Source: Anaerolineae bacterium (GTDB lineage Bacteria > Chloroflexota > Anaerolineae > Aggregatilineales > J027). Taken from it: a DNA stretch of 64,000 nt. Below the pieces are notes generated by a model. The model had not been told where the DNA came from. It saw only the letters and a list, made by a program, of their open reading frames with translations, and made no database searches. Position 1 is the first letter of the stretch. Each line of letters begins with the position of its first letter. Below are positions 4,561 through 10,212 of this stretch, in pieces. Where the stretch lies: assembly GCA_019913005.1 (NCBI GenBank), contig JAIOHL010000252.1, positions 1-64,000 on the forward strand, given 5' to 3'. The position numbers and the translations under genes were made by a program.

Positions 4561-7110
4561 CTATTCAGCAGAGCCAGAAGATGGGCGTTCGTCTGGCGGC
4601 ACATAGGAATCTACTCGAAACGCGATGGGTTGGCTTTCCAAACTGCTGCCATCGGCGAGTTGGGCAGTTGACCAAACTAGATGATCGCCCGGCTGCAAAG
4701 ACCACCAAACATCGAAAGGCGCTTGTTCTATGGATTGGACGATATTACCATCAATCCAATAGGTAATGCTGGCCGTTTCGGGTGGGGTGATGACCGATAG
4801 ACGAATGCGTTGCGTTTCTAATGGCAAGAGCGGCGTCAGGGCAAAAACGGTATAGGGGTCGGGGGAGATCATGCGTAACGGACGTTCTGGTTCTTCACCC
4901 ACCCGGACAGCAGAATCCGGTGGGGGTGGGATGTTTTGACGGGCGGCCCAATCACGCGCTTCGGGGGGCAGCACCAGATAGACCTTTTCCTGTTGAAATT
5001 CGGTGGGGGTTTCGTCGGTTGCCAGCAGTCCGGTGCGGCTGTCTACTAGGAAGGGTTGATAAAAATTATCGGACTCGGTGGGGACAGTGCCCTCAATAAA
5101 CCATTCCCATTTGCGGACGGGGCAATATTCAGTCGGCAGTAAGCCGGAGGTCGCGCAAACTTCGGCCCGTACAAGCCCCTCAGGTCGCTCAAATTGTAAT
5201 TCAGGCTGACCATAGAGCACTTCCCGCATGAATTGATTCCAAATTGGCCCAGCCCCCGTTATACCCGTCACATTGGTCATAGGGGTGTTGTCGGCATTGC
5301 CCACCCAAACCCCCACGACTAAATTCGGGGTGTAGCCCATTGTCCAGTTATCGCGGAAATCGGTGGTCGTGCCTGTTTTGGCAGCGGCGGGTCGGCCAAT
5401 ATTGAGCGAACTGACCGCCCCAAACGCCGGAATACGCGCTTCATTGTCCGAAAGAATGTCGGTAATCAGATAGGCAACACGCGGATCGAGTTCGGGTTTA
5501 CCGAGGGCAGGGGTTTGGGCCTCATAGATCGTCTCCCCTGCACTGTTACGAATTTCCAAAATATAGTTCGGCTCCACACGCTGCCCCCCATTGGCAAAAG
5601 CGCTATAGGCGGCGGTCAGTTCAACCAAGCGCACCTCCCCGCCACCCAACGTCAGCGATAAATCAAAGCGGCTGGTGTCAGTCAGGGTTGAAATGCCCAA
5701 ACGAGTGACCAACGTCACCAACGATTGCACACCGATTTCATTGAGGGTCTCTACCGCTGGGATGTTGTAAGACGAGGCCAATGCCTCACGCACCAGAACC
5801 GGGCCATGTTCCGCTAGGCCAAAATTCAGCGGGGTATAACTTTCGAGGCGGCGGGTGACAAAGGGCGTTTTGACATCGAGCAGCATGGTGGCTGGGGTGA
5901 AAGGTTCTTCATAGGCCGGATTAAAGGCGGCGGCATAGGTAAAGGGTTTCAAGGCTGACCCCGGCTGGCGTGGAGCAAGGGCGGCGTTGACATTGCCGTC
6001 TATGCTTTCGTCAAAATAATCGGGGCTGCCCAACATGGCTAAAATCTGGCCGGTATAGGGGTCTATGGCGACTAAGGCGGCGTTATGTACATCTTTGGGC
6101 GGCGATCCATCCGGCGGATTATTGAGTTCGGCGAGATGCTGACGGGCAATACGTTCGGCGGCATTCTGCCAATTGAGATCAAGGGTGGTGTAAACTTCCA
6201 AACCCCCTGTATAAAGTTCGTCGGCGTAATCGCGTTCCAACTGTGTCCAGACGGCGGCGACAAAATGGGGGGCTAGAATCTCGAATGTGCCCGCACTGTA
6301 ATCGAGCGGTTCTTTTTTGGCCTGTTCCGCTTCAGATTCGGAAATATAGCCGTGCTTGACCATCAAATCCAAAACAATCGTCTGGCGGTCTTTGGCAATA
6401 GTTGGATTTTCGAGCGGGTTATAGATAGCAGGGGATTGGGGCAGACCCGCCAGCATCGCACATTCGGCTAGGCTCAACGAGGCAGGCGACTTGCCAAAAT
6501 AGATGCGGGAGGCGGCTTCGACCCCATAAGCCAAATTGCCATAATATGTCTGATTGAGATAAAGCGTTAGGATTTCTTCGCGGGAATAGGCCATATTCAA
6601 ACGAATGGCAAGGATGCTTTCACGCAGTTTGCGGCGCACGGTGCGGTCTTGACTGGGTTGTTTGGTTAGCAAGAGATTACGCGCAACCTGCTGGGTAATG
6701 GTGCTGCCACCCGCCCGAACCTCCCCACCGCGCACATTAATCCACAGGGCGCGGGCAATACCTTCAATGTCTACGCCGGGGTGATGATAAAAATTGGCGT
6801 CCTCGGTGGCGATGGTTGCATCCGGCAGGCAGCTTGCCATTTCATCAAGGGTAACAGCTTTGTGGCTGCCCCCATACAAATCCACAATTTCATAGAGCAA
6901 TTTGCCGTTGCGGTCATAGATGCGCGTGCTGGGAAGAGCCAGACCCGCTTCCAAATTATCAACATTGGGCAGATCAACAAACAGCCATTGATAGAGATAG
7001 ACGATGCCGGAGATGCCCAAAATAAGCAAAACCAAGAGGGCACGCTGCCAGCGTCTGCGCCGTTTCCAAAATCGCTGGTAAAGATTTTTGGGGAAAGATT
7101 TTTTCATCAC
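4561..7110 (-). CDS. Class A penicillin-binding protein (glycosyltransferase/transpeptidase)
   Basis: Bifunctional murein synthase of 849 aa: it polymerises lipid II glycan strands and cross-links stem peptides on the outer face of the membrane. A basic cytoplasmic tail and one transmembrane helix (about residues 23-43) precede a GT51 domain at about 75-250, with ATEDANFYHHPG containing the catalytic Glu, GGSTITQQ and the RKLRE motif. The transpeptidase domain (about 330-640) has SALK (SxxK, nucleophile Ser near residue 383), SSYN (SxN) and KTGTT (KTG, near 577). All catalytic motifs are present. The C-terminal 150 residues contain an Ig-like region (about 740-830). It is followed on the same strand by the TrpC-like and lipoprotein genes. 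Fits the PBP1A/PonA class; the exact orthologue is not certain. Confidence 0.93.
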   Translation of the reverse strand: MMKKSFPKNLYQRFWKRRRRWQRALLVLLILGISGIVYLYQWLFVDLPNVDNLEAGLALPSTRIYDRNGKLLYEIVDLYGGSHKAVTLDEMASCLPDATIATEDANFYHHPGVDIEGIARALWINVRGGEVRAGGSTITQQVARNLLLTKQPSQDRTVRRKLRESILAIRLNMAYSREEILTLYLNQTYYGNLAYGVEAASRIYFGKSPASLSLAECAMLAGLPQSPAIYNPLENPTIAKDRQTIVLDLMVKHGYISESEAEQAKKEPLDYSAGTFEILAPHFVAAVWTQLERDYADELYTGGLEVYTTLDLNWQNAAERIARQHLAELNNPPDGSPPKDVHNAALVAIDPYTGQILAMLGSPDYFDESIDGNVNAALAPRQPGSALKPFTYAAAFNPAYEEPFTPATMLLDVKTPFVTRRLESYTPLNFGLAEHGPVLVREALASSYNIPAVETLNEIGVQSLVTLVTRLGISTLTDTSRFDLSLTLGGGEVRLVELTAAYSAFANGGQRVEPNYILEIRNSAGETIYEAQTPALGKPELDPRVAYLITDILSDNEARIPAFGAVSSLNIGRPAAAKTGTTTDFRDNWTMGYTPNLVVGVWVGNADNTPMTNVTGITGAGPIWNQFMREVLYGQPELQFERPEGLVRAEVCATSGLLPTEYCPVRKWEWFIEGTVPTESDNFYQPFLVDSRTGLLATDETPTEFQQEKVYLVLPPEARDWAARQNIPPPPDSAVRVGEEPERPLRMISPDPYTVFALTPLLPLETQRIRLSVITPPETASITYWIDGNIVQSIEQAPFDVWWSLQPGDHLVWSTAQLADGSSLESQPIAFRVDSYVPPDERPSSGSAE

Positions 7111-7622: not shown

Positions 7623-8147
7623 ATGGTAGAGGTCAAAATTGATTGTATTAGAATGAGCTTGATGACCCAAAACCGGGTGGTCATTCTAAAAGAAGAAGGC
7701 AGCGAACGGTATCTGGCAATCTGGATTGGGCCATACGAAGCGGAAGCCATTACCACCGAGCTTCAAGATGTTCAACACAAACGCCCTTTGACCCACGACC
7801 TATTGAAATCACTGATTGTCGAAATGGGAGCGGAAGTTCAATATGTGGTAATCACCGAACTCCGTCGCCCCGATGATATTTTCTTCGCCAAGATTGTGAT
7901 TGAATTGGACGGACGTGAACTCGAAGTAGATTCTCGCCCCAGTGACGCCATCGCATTAGCAGTCCGTGCCCGCGTGCCGATTTATGTTGAACCTGAAGTG
8001 ATGGATGCCGCCGCTGTTACCCCCGAAGAAGATGTTGAGAACGAACCCGATGTGCCGACTGAAAAAGGCGCGGCGTTGGACGACAAACTAGGGTTGTTCA
8101 AAGATTTTGTGGAAACACTCGATCTGGATAATTTGGACGAAGAATAA
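7623..8147 (+). CDS. Bifunctional nuclease family protein (BFN, DUF151)
   Basis: 174 aa. Residues about 1-130 match the BFN/DUF151 fold (MVEVKIDCIRMS, AIWIGPYEAEAI, RPLTHDLLKSL, LEVDSRPSDAIALAVR). Members are described as small nucleases acting on DNA and RNA and are widespread in Chloroflexota, Thermotogae and plants. Residues 135-174 form an acidic tail. The start has GAGGAAG nearby upstream. It lies behind a long, apparently structured leader with its own promoter, which suggests post-transcriptional control. A palindromic repeat and a terminator follow. Family is confident; the nuclease role is carried over from the family. Confidence 0.9.
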   Translation: MVEVKIDCIRMSLMTQNRVVILKEEGSERYLAIWIGPYEAEAITTELQDVQHKRPLTHDLLKSLIVEMGAEVQYVVITELRRPDDIFFAKIVIELDGRELEVDSRPSDAIALAVRARVPIYVEPEVMDAAAVTPEEDVENEPDVPTEKGAALDDKLGLFKDFVETLDLDNLDEE

Positions 8148-8265: not shown

Positions 8266-9375
8266 TTAGCTCCCGGTGACTCCAATTGGCGCGATATTGG
8301 GTTCAACGTAAATGGGGTTGCTTAAAATCCAGCAGCGTTCAATTCCTTTATATTCACGCCAAACCTCGACGCGATAGGCCCCCGGTTGGGAGGCGACATA
8401 GGTCAGATTCTCGACATTGGTCTCGTCCGCGACCACCTGTCCCCGAAAAATCATTTTGATGTGGGTGCGGACTGGCATCAACACTTGCAAGGTAACACCA
8501 TGCCCCAAACGAATACTATCCCCCATTTGGGCGGTTGCGCCCTGTGCTCCCTGCGCCGAATATCGAAAACCTTTGGCCTCACCGGGAATGCGGTAGCTAA
8601 TAAACGTGCTGCCCCGTGCTAAGGCTCGATAAATGATGTCGGCGTCGTGTTCCATTTCCCCGATCAAAGGGTGTTGGGTCAAGATATGGGTATTGACGCA
8701 GTTAAACAAAAAATCATAGGGGAACACGATGTGGGTAATCGGGCCAATTTTCATCGGCGTGCCGTGCGCATCAGAATTGCCGATACCCACGACCCGCTTG
8801 CCCTGTGCCAATAATTGATCCCATTTGGCGAGGGTTTCTTCGTCCGGGCCAATAATCGCGTCTTCAGGTGAAAACAAACGCCGCACACTCTTCAGCGGGT
8901 TTTCGAGGACGGCCTTAAACGAACTCATATAATTCCATATTTCGAGGCCTGTGTAGCCCTCAATATCCCAATCTACCCAAGGGATACCTTCAATATCTTC
9001 GCGCCAATCTACCCCTTTATCAAATGGATGGGCCAAAAAGGTCATGCCACCTGCGCGATTAACCGCTTTGATAAGAGCTTGGGGGTCGGGGGCATAACGA
9101 TTCATTTCGGTTTTGGCGTTGTAAACCAAGCAGTGATTGACTTGGGGCAGGCGGGTGCGGTCATGAATTTCTTGCCCGGTCAATAACAGAACGTAGCCAC
9201 GTTTTTCATCGCCATAATAACCCTGTACTCCATCAATCCAAATGTTGTGATCGGTTACGACCACAAAGTCGAGTTTGGTGGCAAGGGCAGCATCGGCGAT
9301 TTCGGAATGCCATGCTTCACCATCGGAGTAGGGGGTATGCATATGAAGATTGCCAATATATTCGTGATAGGCCAT
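8266..9375 (-). CDS. PHP-domain metal-dependent phosphoesterase
   Basis: 370 aa from the ATG at 9375 (MAYHEYIGNLHMHTPYSDGE). Upstream in-frame codons are unlikely to be translated, because the PHP domain begins at once. Metal-binding motifs of the PHP superfamily are present: HMHTPYSDGE, VVTDHN, LAHPFD and GNSDAHG. The domain covers about residues 5-270, followed by a beta-rich C-terminus. PHP proteins hydrolyse phosphoesters; this substrate is unknown. Its promoter side faces the DnaA-box region, so the gene reads away from the candidate origin. A second, different PHP protein is encoded at 14425-16206. Confidence 0.85.
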   Translation of the reverse strand: MAYHEYIGNLHMHTPYSDGEAWHSEIADAALATKLDFVVVTDHNIWIDGVQGYYGDEKRGYVLLLTGQEIHDRTRLPQVNHCLVYNAKTEMNRYAPDPQALIKAVNRAGGMTFLAHPFDKGVDWREDIEGIPWVDWDIEGYTGLEIWNYMSSFKAVLENPLKSVRRLFSPEDAIIGPDEETLAKWDQLLAQGKRVVGIGNSDAHGTPMKIGPITHIVFPYDFLFNCVNTHILTQHPLIGEMEHDADIIYRALARGSTFISYRIPGEAKGFRYSAQGAQGATAQMGDSIRLGHGVTLQVLMPVRTHIKMIFRGQVVADETNVENLTYVASQPGAYRVEVWREYKGIERCWILSNPIYVEPNIAPIGVTGS

Positions 9376-9495
9376 TGGATACCTAAGTTGAAAATTTGAA
9401 AAATTAAAATGACGACTGCAAAAAAGTTCGCTCAAAAATTGTACTCTTTTTTGGGGTGGAGCAGTGCGGGAAAATTTGGGTGGTGTGAACGAAAG

Positions 9496-9879
9496 TTATC
9501 AACACTTTTCCCACTATTTTTTATTTTTAAATAGTCGTAGTAGTAGAGAGAGGGTAACCTGTTGATAACTTTTTTCTCGATTATGACACGTCTATTAAAA
9601 TGGCTTAAGGGTGGGATTTTGAATATGTTGATTGATAAATCAGCATGTTGATAACTTGTTGATAACCTGTTCATAACTTTTTGAGTTATCAACAGGTTAT
9701 CAACAGTTAAGGTTTGTGTAAGAAGCGGAAAGGCAAGTTATCAACAGGTTATCAACAGGTTTGAAAAAGTTATGAACAGGCAACTTCCTCAATACTTCTT
9801 GATATGGCTTGTGGGAGCGGATGAACGTTATCAACAGAACAAATTATCTGTTGATAACTTGTTGATAACCTGTTGATAA
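9496..9879. other. oriC: Candidate chromosomal replication origin: array of DnaA-like boxes
   Basis: The gene-free stretch 9376-10002 holds 12 exact copies of TTATCAACA, one base from the classical DnaA box TTATCCACA. Plus-strand copies start at 9496, 9686, 9697, 9738, 9749 and 9828. Minus-strand copies start at 9560, 9646, 9657, 9849, 9860 and 9871. Two one-mismatch copies (TTATGAACA) lie at 9668 (minus) and 9770 (plus). Many are exactly 11 bp apart (9646/9657/9668, 9686/9697, 9738/9749, 9849/9860/9871), which places them on one helix face. An AT-rich tract and TAG triplets adjoin the leftmost minus box. No dnaA or dnaN is in the window, so the origin role is inferred from the boxes alone. 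Confidence 0.7.
9510..9559 (-). promoter_or_regulatory. Candidate unwinding element: GC spacer, DnaA-trio-like triplets, AT-rich tract
   Basis: Reading leftwards on the minus strand from the box at 9568-9560: a GGTTACCC spacer (9559-9552), then a run whose plus-strand form is TAG-TCG-TAG-TAG-TAG (9532-9546), then the AT tract 9513-9531 (TATTTTTTATTTTTAAATA). Box, GC spacer, 3'-GAT-5' trios and AT DNA is the order described for the basal unwinding system of bacterial origins. Assignment rests on motif order only. Confidence 0.5.
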
Positions 9880-9895
9880 GTCCTTTGTGGAGGTA

Positions 9896-10002
9896 AATCG
9901 GAAAACTAGCTTAATTCTAACTCTATTCTAACATAAGAGATTGTTGCGCGGATAGGATATAGTTGAGTTATAGTATAAAATTATATTCCACGAAGCGCGG
10001 TA
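9896..10002. other. AT-rich spacer right of the DnaA boxes
   Basis: Low-GC DNA with repeated TTCTAACTCTATTCTAAC and TATAGTATAAAATTATATT runs. It could be a second melting site or simply the 3' flank of the small gene at 10003. I see no gene here. Confidence 0.4.
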
Positions 10003-10212
10003 CTATTTTTTCTTCGATTTTCTGATCTGTTTTACCGTAGCATGTAAAAAGGCAAAATCGCCGCGTGCTGGCATGAGTTCATTGACTTCCACAATTTCAA
10101 AGGTGTTTTTGCCAATTTTGACGTGCCCCCCCACTTTCGGTTGCTCAAATTGATTGATAATTGCACCGGGGTGTGCGCCGCCGAGAACGACGTAACTCAC
10201 TTTATAGACCAT
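10003..10212 (-). CDS. Small conserved-looking hypothetical protein
   Basis: 69 aa, beta-rich with a basic tail (QIRKSKKK). It has GGAGCGGATCAG just upstream of the ATG, a good ribosome site. I do not recognise the family. It is preceded by the cyclic-nucleotide-binding gene with an 18-bp gap on the same strand, so the two likely form one transcript running towards the candidate origin. A small all-beta fold is plausible from the alternating pattern (VSYVVLGG, VKIGKNTFEIVEV). Confidence 0.65.
   Translation of the reverse strand: MVYKVSYVVLGGAHPGAIINQFEQPKVGGHVKIGKNTFEIVEVNELMPARGDFAFLHATVKQIRKSKKK

Follow-up and report, generated by a model that had tools for sequence, protein, structure and literature searches.

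A densely boxed, 11-bp-phased intergenic array as the probable chromosomal replication origin of an Anaerolineae bacterium, lying away from dnaA

We analysed a 64,000-nucleotide stretch of DNA, called the window here, from a draft genome of an Anaerolineae bacterium (Chloroflexota). The window contains an intergenic region bounded by a PHP-domain gene and a small minus-strand ORF (Table 1), amid ordinary chromosomal genes that encode Lon (assigned by sequence similarity), a class A PBP and IGPS. The genome encodes a DnaA protein with domains I, III and IV (Pfam DnaA_N, Bac_DnaA and Bac_DnaA_C), whose gene resides on another contig (C338). The assembly comprises 7.6 Mb in 365 contigs; its four congeners have 4.9–5.6 Mb, and the excess may represent foreign contigs or real expansion.

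Table 1. Features of the array locus, in window coordinates
Feature	Position	Strand	Remarks
Bifunctional-nuclease-domain gene (BFN)	7623–8147	+	In the block inverted between genera
PHP-domain gene next to the array (marker of synteny)	8266–9375	−	Pfam PHP, weak; adjoins the array in the window's genus and in the neighbouring genus
Intergenic region holding the proposed oriC	9376–10001		Between the PHP gene start (9375) and the next gene's stop codon (10002)
DnaA box TTATCAACA, far side of the AT tract	9496–9504	+	Conserved in 5/5 genomes
AT tract, proposed unwinding site	9515–9531		9514–9546 invariant in five genomes, low predicted stability
DnaA-trios TAG-TCG-TAG-TAG-TAG	9532–9546	+	From sequence; invariant; same element in relatives
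13-bp spacer AGAGAGGGTAACC, trios to box	9547–9559		From sequence; inside the published 10–13 bp peak (PMC8287927)
DnaA box TTATCAACA adjoining the trios, proposed loading box	9560–9568	−	From sequence and alignment; plus strand reads TGTTGATAA
Three boxes in 11-bp phase: 9646, 9657 (TTATCAACA), 9668 (TTATGAACA)	9646–9676	−
Two TTATCAACA boxes spaced 11 bp: 9686, 9697	9686–9705	+
Two TTATCAACA boxes spaced 11 bp: 9738, 9749	9738–9757	+
Box TTATGAACA	9770–9778	+
Box TTATCAACA	9828–9836	+
Three TTATCAACA boxes spaced 11 bp: 9849, 9860, 9871	9849–9879	−	Outermost is TTATGAACA in the groundwater genome
Small minus-strand ORF	10002–10212	−	Its stop bounds the array gap

The intergenic region holds 14 boxes on both strands within 384 bp (9496–9879), 12 of which are exact copies of TTATCAACA and two of which read TTATGAACA, a dense DnaA-box cluster of the kind that marks an oriC. 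An earlier note on this DNA had described twelve exact and two one-mismatch boxes in about 385 bp of gene-free DNA, four groups of them spaced exactly 11 bp, and a GC spacer, TAG triplets and an AT tract following in this order beside the box at 9560. We recovered all box positions, the box coordinates confirmed the four phased groups, and the elements beside box 9560 read in the order claimed. The note had also held that such an array is beyond chance, which agrees with the shuffled windows, where TTATCAACA occurred 0.58 times on average and at most four times compared with the 12 exact copies here. Outside the array, the window contains a single stray TTATCAACA at 6956.

At the left end of the array, the plus strand from 9515 to 9568 reads through the AT tract, the five triplets, the 13-bp spacer and TGTTGATAA, the minus-strand box. 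The stretch 9514–9546 ranks among the 0.02% least stable 33-mers predicted for the whole window, and the AT tract would provide the AT-rich unwinding element of an oriC. A basal unwinding system (BUS) comprises at least three NAN trios of the 3′-GAT-5′ type, separated by 0–16 bp, with a peak at 10–13 bp, from a DnaA box (PMC8287927). Here TAG-TAG-TAG (9538–9546), followed by TCG and TAG, lies 13 bp from box 9560, and the trios lead away from this box with the published 3′-GAT-5′ polarity (PMC8287927; PMC6669920). The copy of TAGTAGTAG at 9532–9546 and its own orthologues are the only intergenic ones in the contigs fetched from the window's genome and two congeners (DTUCFX7 and CFX5). The arrangement resembles the BUS of the Bacillus subtilis origin, in which a DnaA box, a short spacer, 3′-GAT-5′ trios leading away and an AT tract follow one another, with further boxes on the opposite side (PMC6669920; PMC8287927). 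Unlike in B. subtilis, however, the array is not beside dnaA, one of the five triplets is TCG, the box is TTATCAACA, and the trios adjoin a single exact box instead of a tandem pair.

The window's genus is represented by metagenome assemblies only: the window's genome (G000), Anaerolineae bacterium DTUCFX7 (JAJTXY010000001.1, G001), a groundwater genome (JACRBG010000009.1, G002), CFX10 (G003) and Chloroflexi bacterium CFX5 (QMIT01000006.1, G004). The nearest named relatives carry the same locus with 91–99% protein identity, and the array is present at the same place in all five sequenced genomes. When the five are aligned, only one of 126 columns varies in the boxes and none of 33 in the trios and AT tract, as against 70 of 225 in the spacers inside the array and 69% and 50% in the flanking intergenic DNA. 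Selection therefore maintains the boxes and the unwinding module while tolerating far more change between them. Each of these five drafts has a single locus with tandem boxes in 11-bp phase; single boxes were assessed among the matches listed. The genome-wide count suggested by the earlier note gave 126 copies of TTATCAACA in the 7.6-Mb draft, compared with 42 of the reversed word. Dense arrays at other loci would have spoken against an origin, and in the window's genome 11-bp tandem pairs occur only here. A scattered titration network of TTATCAACA sites was considered and rejected because, in 1.17 Mb of DNA fetched from the genus, the word outside the arrays is about as common as similar 9-mers. 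A phylum-wide sample of 400 genomes yielded exact tandem TTATCAACA in the window's genome alone, and the only further carriers detected were its four congeners.

Other genera of the order have comparable arrays, and almost all of these carry at one end the unwinding module of AT tract, TAG trios, short spacer and box. Of the other arrays inspected, only that of G022 had no recognisable trio; the rest have a TAG/CTA repeat in this polarity adjoining the box at one end. In the neighbouring genus of the same family, the arrays of G009 (TC_152) and G007 (J027) occupy the homologous PHP locus. Relative to the flanking Lon and PBP genes, the BFN-PHP-array block has opposite orientations in the two genera, as gene order reveals. 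The immediate neighbour of the whole array is dnaA in three genomes (G006, G067 and G069), a position that links elements of this type to the classical origin neighbourhood. In the window's genus, the proposal of the earlier note that the origin lies away from dnaA is borne out by CFX5: its array and its dnaA are on different contigs, the array 125 kb from the closer end of one of 385 kb and dnaA 62 kb from the closer end of the other, which puts at least 186 kb between them. A search at dnaA in this genus detected no box cluster.

Several other motifs were observed at these loci. The palindrome CCATATATGG, often within CCCCCATATATGGGGGG, is present in one or two copies inside the arrays of G008, G067, G069, G045 and G022 (L180 14094–14970, L182 4653–5461, L183 3059–3858, L184 7978–8673 and L193 924–1618) and nowhere else in those 12–16 kb loci; it is absent from the window's array and may be the site for a second origin-binding protein. 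Four to eight copies of TGGGATA/TATCCCA lie within or close to the arrays of G046, G033, G060 and G008 (L186 7471–8277, L185 6523–7322, L192 7944–8743 and L180 14043–15020) and the motif is rare elsewhere in the loci. A search for canonical parS gave only isolated matches with one or two mismatches, none of them near the array, and the origin marker rpmH was found on other contigs than the array.

The array word departs from the E. coli-type box TTATNCACA, which has C at position 6, by carrying A at this position in all 14 boxes. The preferred box is thus TTATCAACA and not TTATCCACA, as the earlier note had proposed. The base-specific contacts of E. coli DnaA involve R399, P423 and residues 432–435 and 438–439 (PMC5043019), and the helix 434–451 reads the TnCACA part of the box (PMC5742627). 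In the DnaA of the window's genus, R399, P423, R432, H434 and H439 are kept, and residues 433 and 435 are changed to N and S, by a numbering that we take to be that of the E. coli protein. Residue 433 is Asp in E. coli DnaA. In the 14 genomes of the order with both a recognisable array and a readable DnaA, it is D, N, S, T, A or R, and the dinucleotide at box positions 5–6 is more alike than expected among genomes with the same residue 433 (p = 0.002 by shuffling; p = 0.014 with pairs from different families only). The box word is lineage-specific even within the neighbouring genus, which provides the clearest case at one homologous locus: G009 has mainly TTATCAACA and N433, and G007 has nine TTTTGCACA together with T433 and R439. 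Given the small number of genomes and the only partial control for relatedness, we take these sequence comparisons as an indication that residue 433 and box positions 5–6 co-vary. DnaA was not found, or was matched very weakly, in several genomes that are 93–96% complete (G042, G066, G072, G057, G064, G076 and G079; family f2 and genus g31), and genus g31 has possibly lost DnaA or diverged strongly in it.

Lineage-specific boxes have been described for Epsilonproteobacteria, where the core likewise departs from TTATCCACA and the change was attributed to helix 5 of DnaA domain IV (PMC5043019). There, however, position 5 is always T and the dyad HD (433–434) is reported to be highly conserved, whereas here positions 5–6 vary and residue 433 is replaced. 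The oriC of the linear chromosome of Cyanothece ATCC 51142, footprinted with DnaA domain IV, is also intergenic and away from dnaA and includes one TTATCAACA box, but it has three boxes of mixed sequence without a dense 11-bp-phased array (PMC4674748). The E. coli oriC likewise lies apart from dnaA with several DnaA boxes in both orientations, but its boxes are TTATNCACA and its BUS score is weak (PMC8287927), in contrast to the 11-bp direct arrays of strong boxes in the window.

A GC-skew minimum is typical of oriC, albeit not obligatory. We computed the skew at 4-fold sites with correction for gene orientation, which describes local stretches of draft contigs rather than global profiles. The expectation of the earlier note that a skew minimum would lie at the array failed in the window's genus. 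The corrected skew there is strong yet keeps the same sign to the left and right of the array, about +0.2 in the window's genome and in DTUCFX7, and −0.21/−0.23 in CFX5, whose contig is reversed; the shorter stretches of the groundwater genome and CFX10 likewise keep their sign. In CFX5, the nearest local minimum lies about 31 kb from the array, with nothing origin-like at it, and the skew is patchy elsewhere. A clear minimum is instead found about 8 kb from dnaA in both the window's genome and CFX5, where the shared sign change falls at about 61,600 of C338 and about 52,300 of C8, respectively. Neither genome has boxes or trios at this dnaA-side minimum. In the neighbouring genus, however, the skew changes sign at the array, with values for minus-strand genes rising from −0.06 to +0.23 (G009) and from +0.01 to +0.24 (G007), so that a minimum falls at the homologous locus there but not in the window's genus. 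Two alternatives were rejected. One was an origin at the dnaA-side minimum or at 284–300 kb of contig C21 of CFX5, where no box cluster, notable repeated 9-mer or intergenic TAG trio was found. The other was a simple inversion as the source of the skew conflict: the only inversion evident from gene order is that of the BFN-PHP-array block between the two genera, and this alone should not move a skew minimum.

Because a second initiation site would be compatible with the array being oriC, the probabilities of the readings overlap. There is perhaps one chance in a few that the chromosome has two starts, with a further site near dnaA, possibly independent of DnaA, in addition to an oriC at the array, or that the origin moved recently and left a fossil skew near dnaA. 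Such a history would account for a dnaA-side minimum together with a strongly conserved array, and irregular skew with several start sites is known in cyanobacteria (PMC7198777). However, the position at the PHP locus is common to the window's genus and the neighbouring one, and a relocation was thus not very recent. Moreover, as the skew is patchy elsewhere in CFX5, a local minimum may be the end of an inversion. We consider it improbable that the array is a DnaA-titrating or -regulating locus of the datA or DARS type in a chromosome that starts near dnaA at the skew minimum. The lack of a minimum at the array in the window's genus fits such a locus, but datA and DARS are box clusters outside the origin without an unwinding element, whereas the array has a complete, invariant trio and AT module, needless for titration; in addition, the dnaA-side minimum is bare, the neighbouring genus has its minimum at the array, and other genera have the array itself beside dnaA. 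The position just upstream of the PHP gene might suggest an operator or attenuator of this gene, or else the repeats might be iterons of an integrated plasmid, but both readings are rejected as highly implausible because the arrays of this kind in relatives adjoin dnaA or genes other than PHP, and furthermore the flanks are ordinary chromosomal genes and the repeat is a DnaA-box word adjoining trios.

We conclude that the region is very probably the oriC of this Anaerolineae chromosome, because the array is beyond chance, the only one with 11-bp tandem boxes in each of the five genomes of the genus, conserved and BUS-like in order, its module recurs in relatives, the skew of the neighbouring genus changes sign at it, DnaA and box appear to co-vary, and the contigs read from the window's genus contain neither a competing cluster of boxes nor another intergenic TAG trio. 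The origin reading of the earlier note thus gains from the single tandem array per genome, the near-perfect conservation of boxes and trios, and the homologous module of other genera, which lies beside dnaA in three genomes. The main objection is the skew, which keeps one sign across the array in the window's genus and has its minimum near dnaA; the array of G022, with no recognisable trio, also speaks against it. Most simply, both genera have their origin at the array, and the skew of the window's genus either is a relic of a former origin close to dnaA or was disturbed by rearrangement. The architecture is a known one, with an unusual, lineage-specific box and displaced from dnaA.

We infer that DnaA binds, the DNA opens and replication fires at the array. 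DnaA would bind the 14 boxes (TTATCAACA, twice TTATGAACA), and the 11-bp spacing, one helical turn, would place neighbouring molecules on one face and let them assemble. From box 9560, DnaA-ATP would extend 3′ to 5′ onto the TAG trios (9546 to 9532) and stretch that strand, whereupon the AT tract would open and the helicase could be loaded there. The A in place of C at box position 6 would be matched by the altered recognition helix (Asn433 and Ser435). We tentatively suggest, at well under even odds, that initiator and origin in this order change their DNA-binding specificity together and often, and that the origin of the window's genus has additionally moved off dnaA, leaving a fossil of the former origin or two starts.

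Among the papers searched, none dealt with oriC in Chloroflexota or Anaerolineae, and the locus offers a predicted origin, resolved to its sub-elements, for a lineage without cultured members. The disagreement between array and skew minimum cautions against assigning the origins of draft genomes by skew or dnaA position alone. Within the order, DnaA proteins and their boxes form a naturally matched series, which would make the DNA-recognition code of DnaA directly testable.
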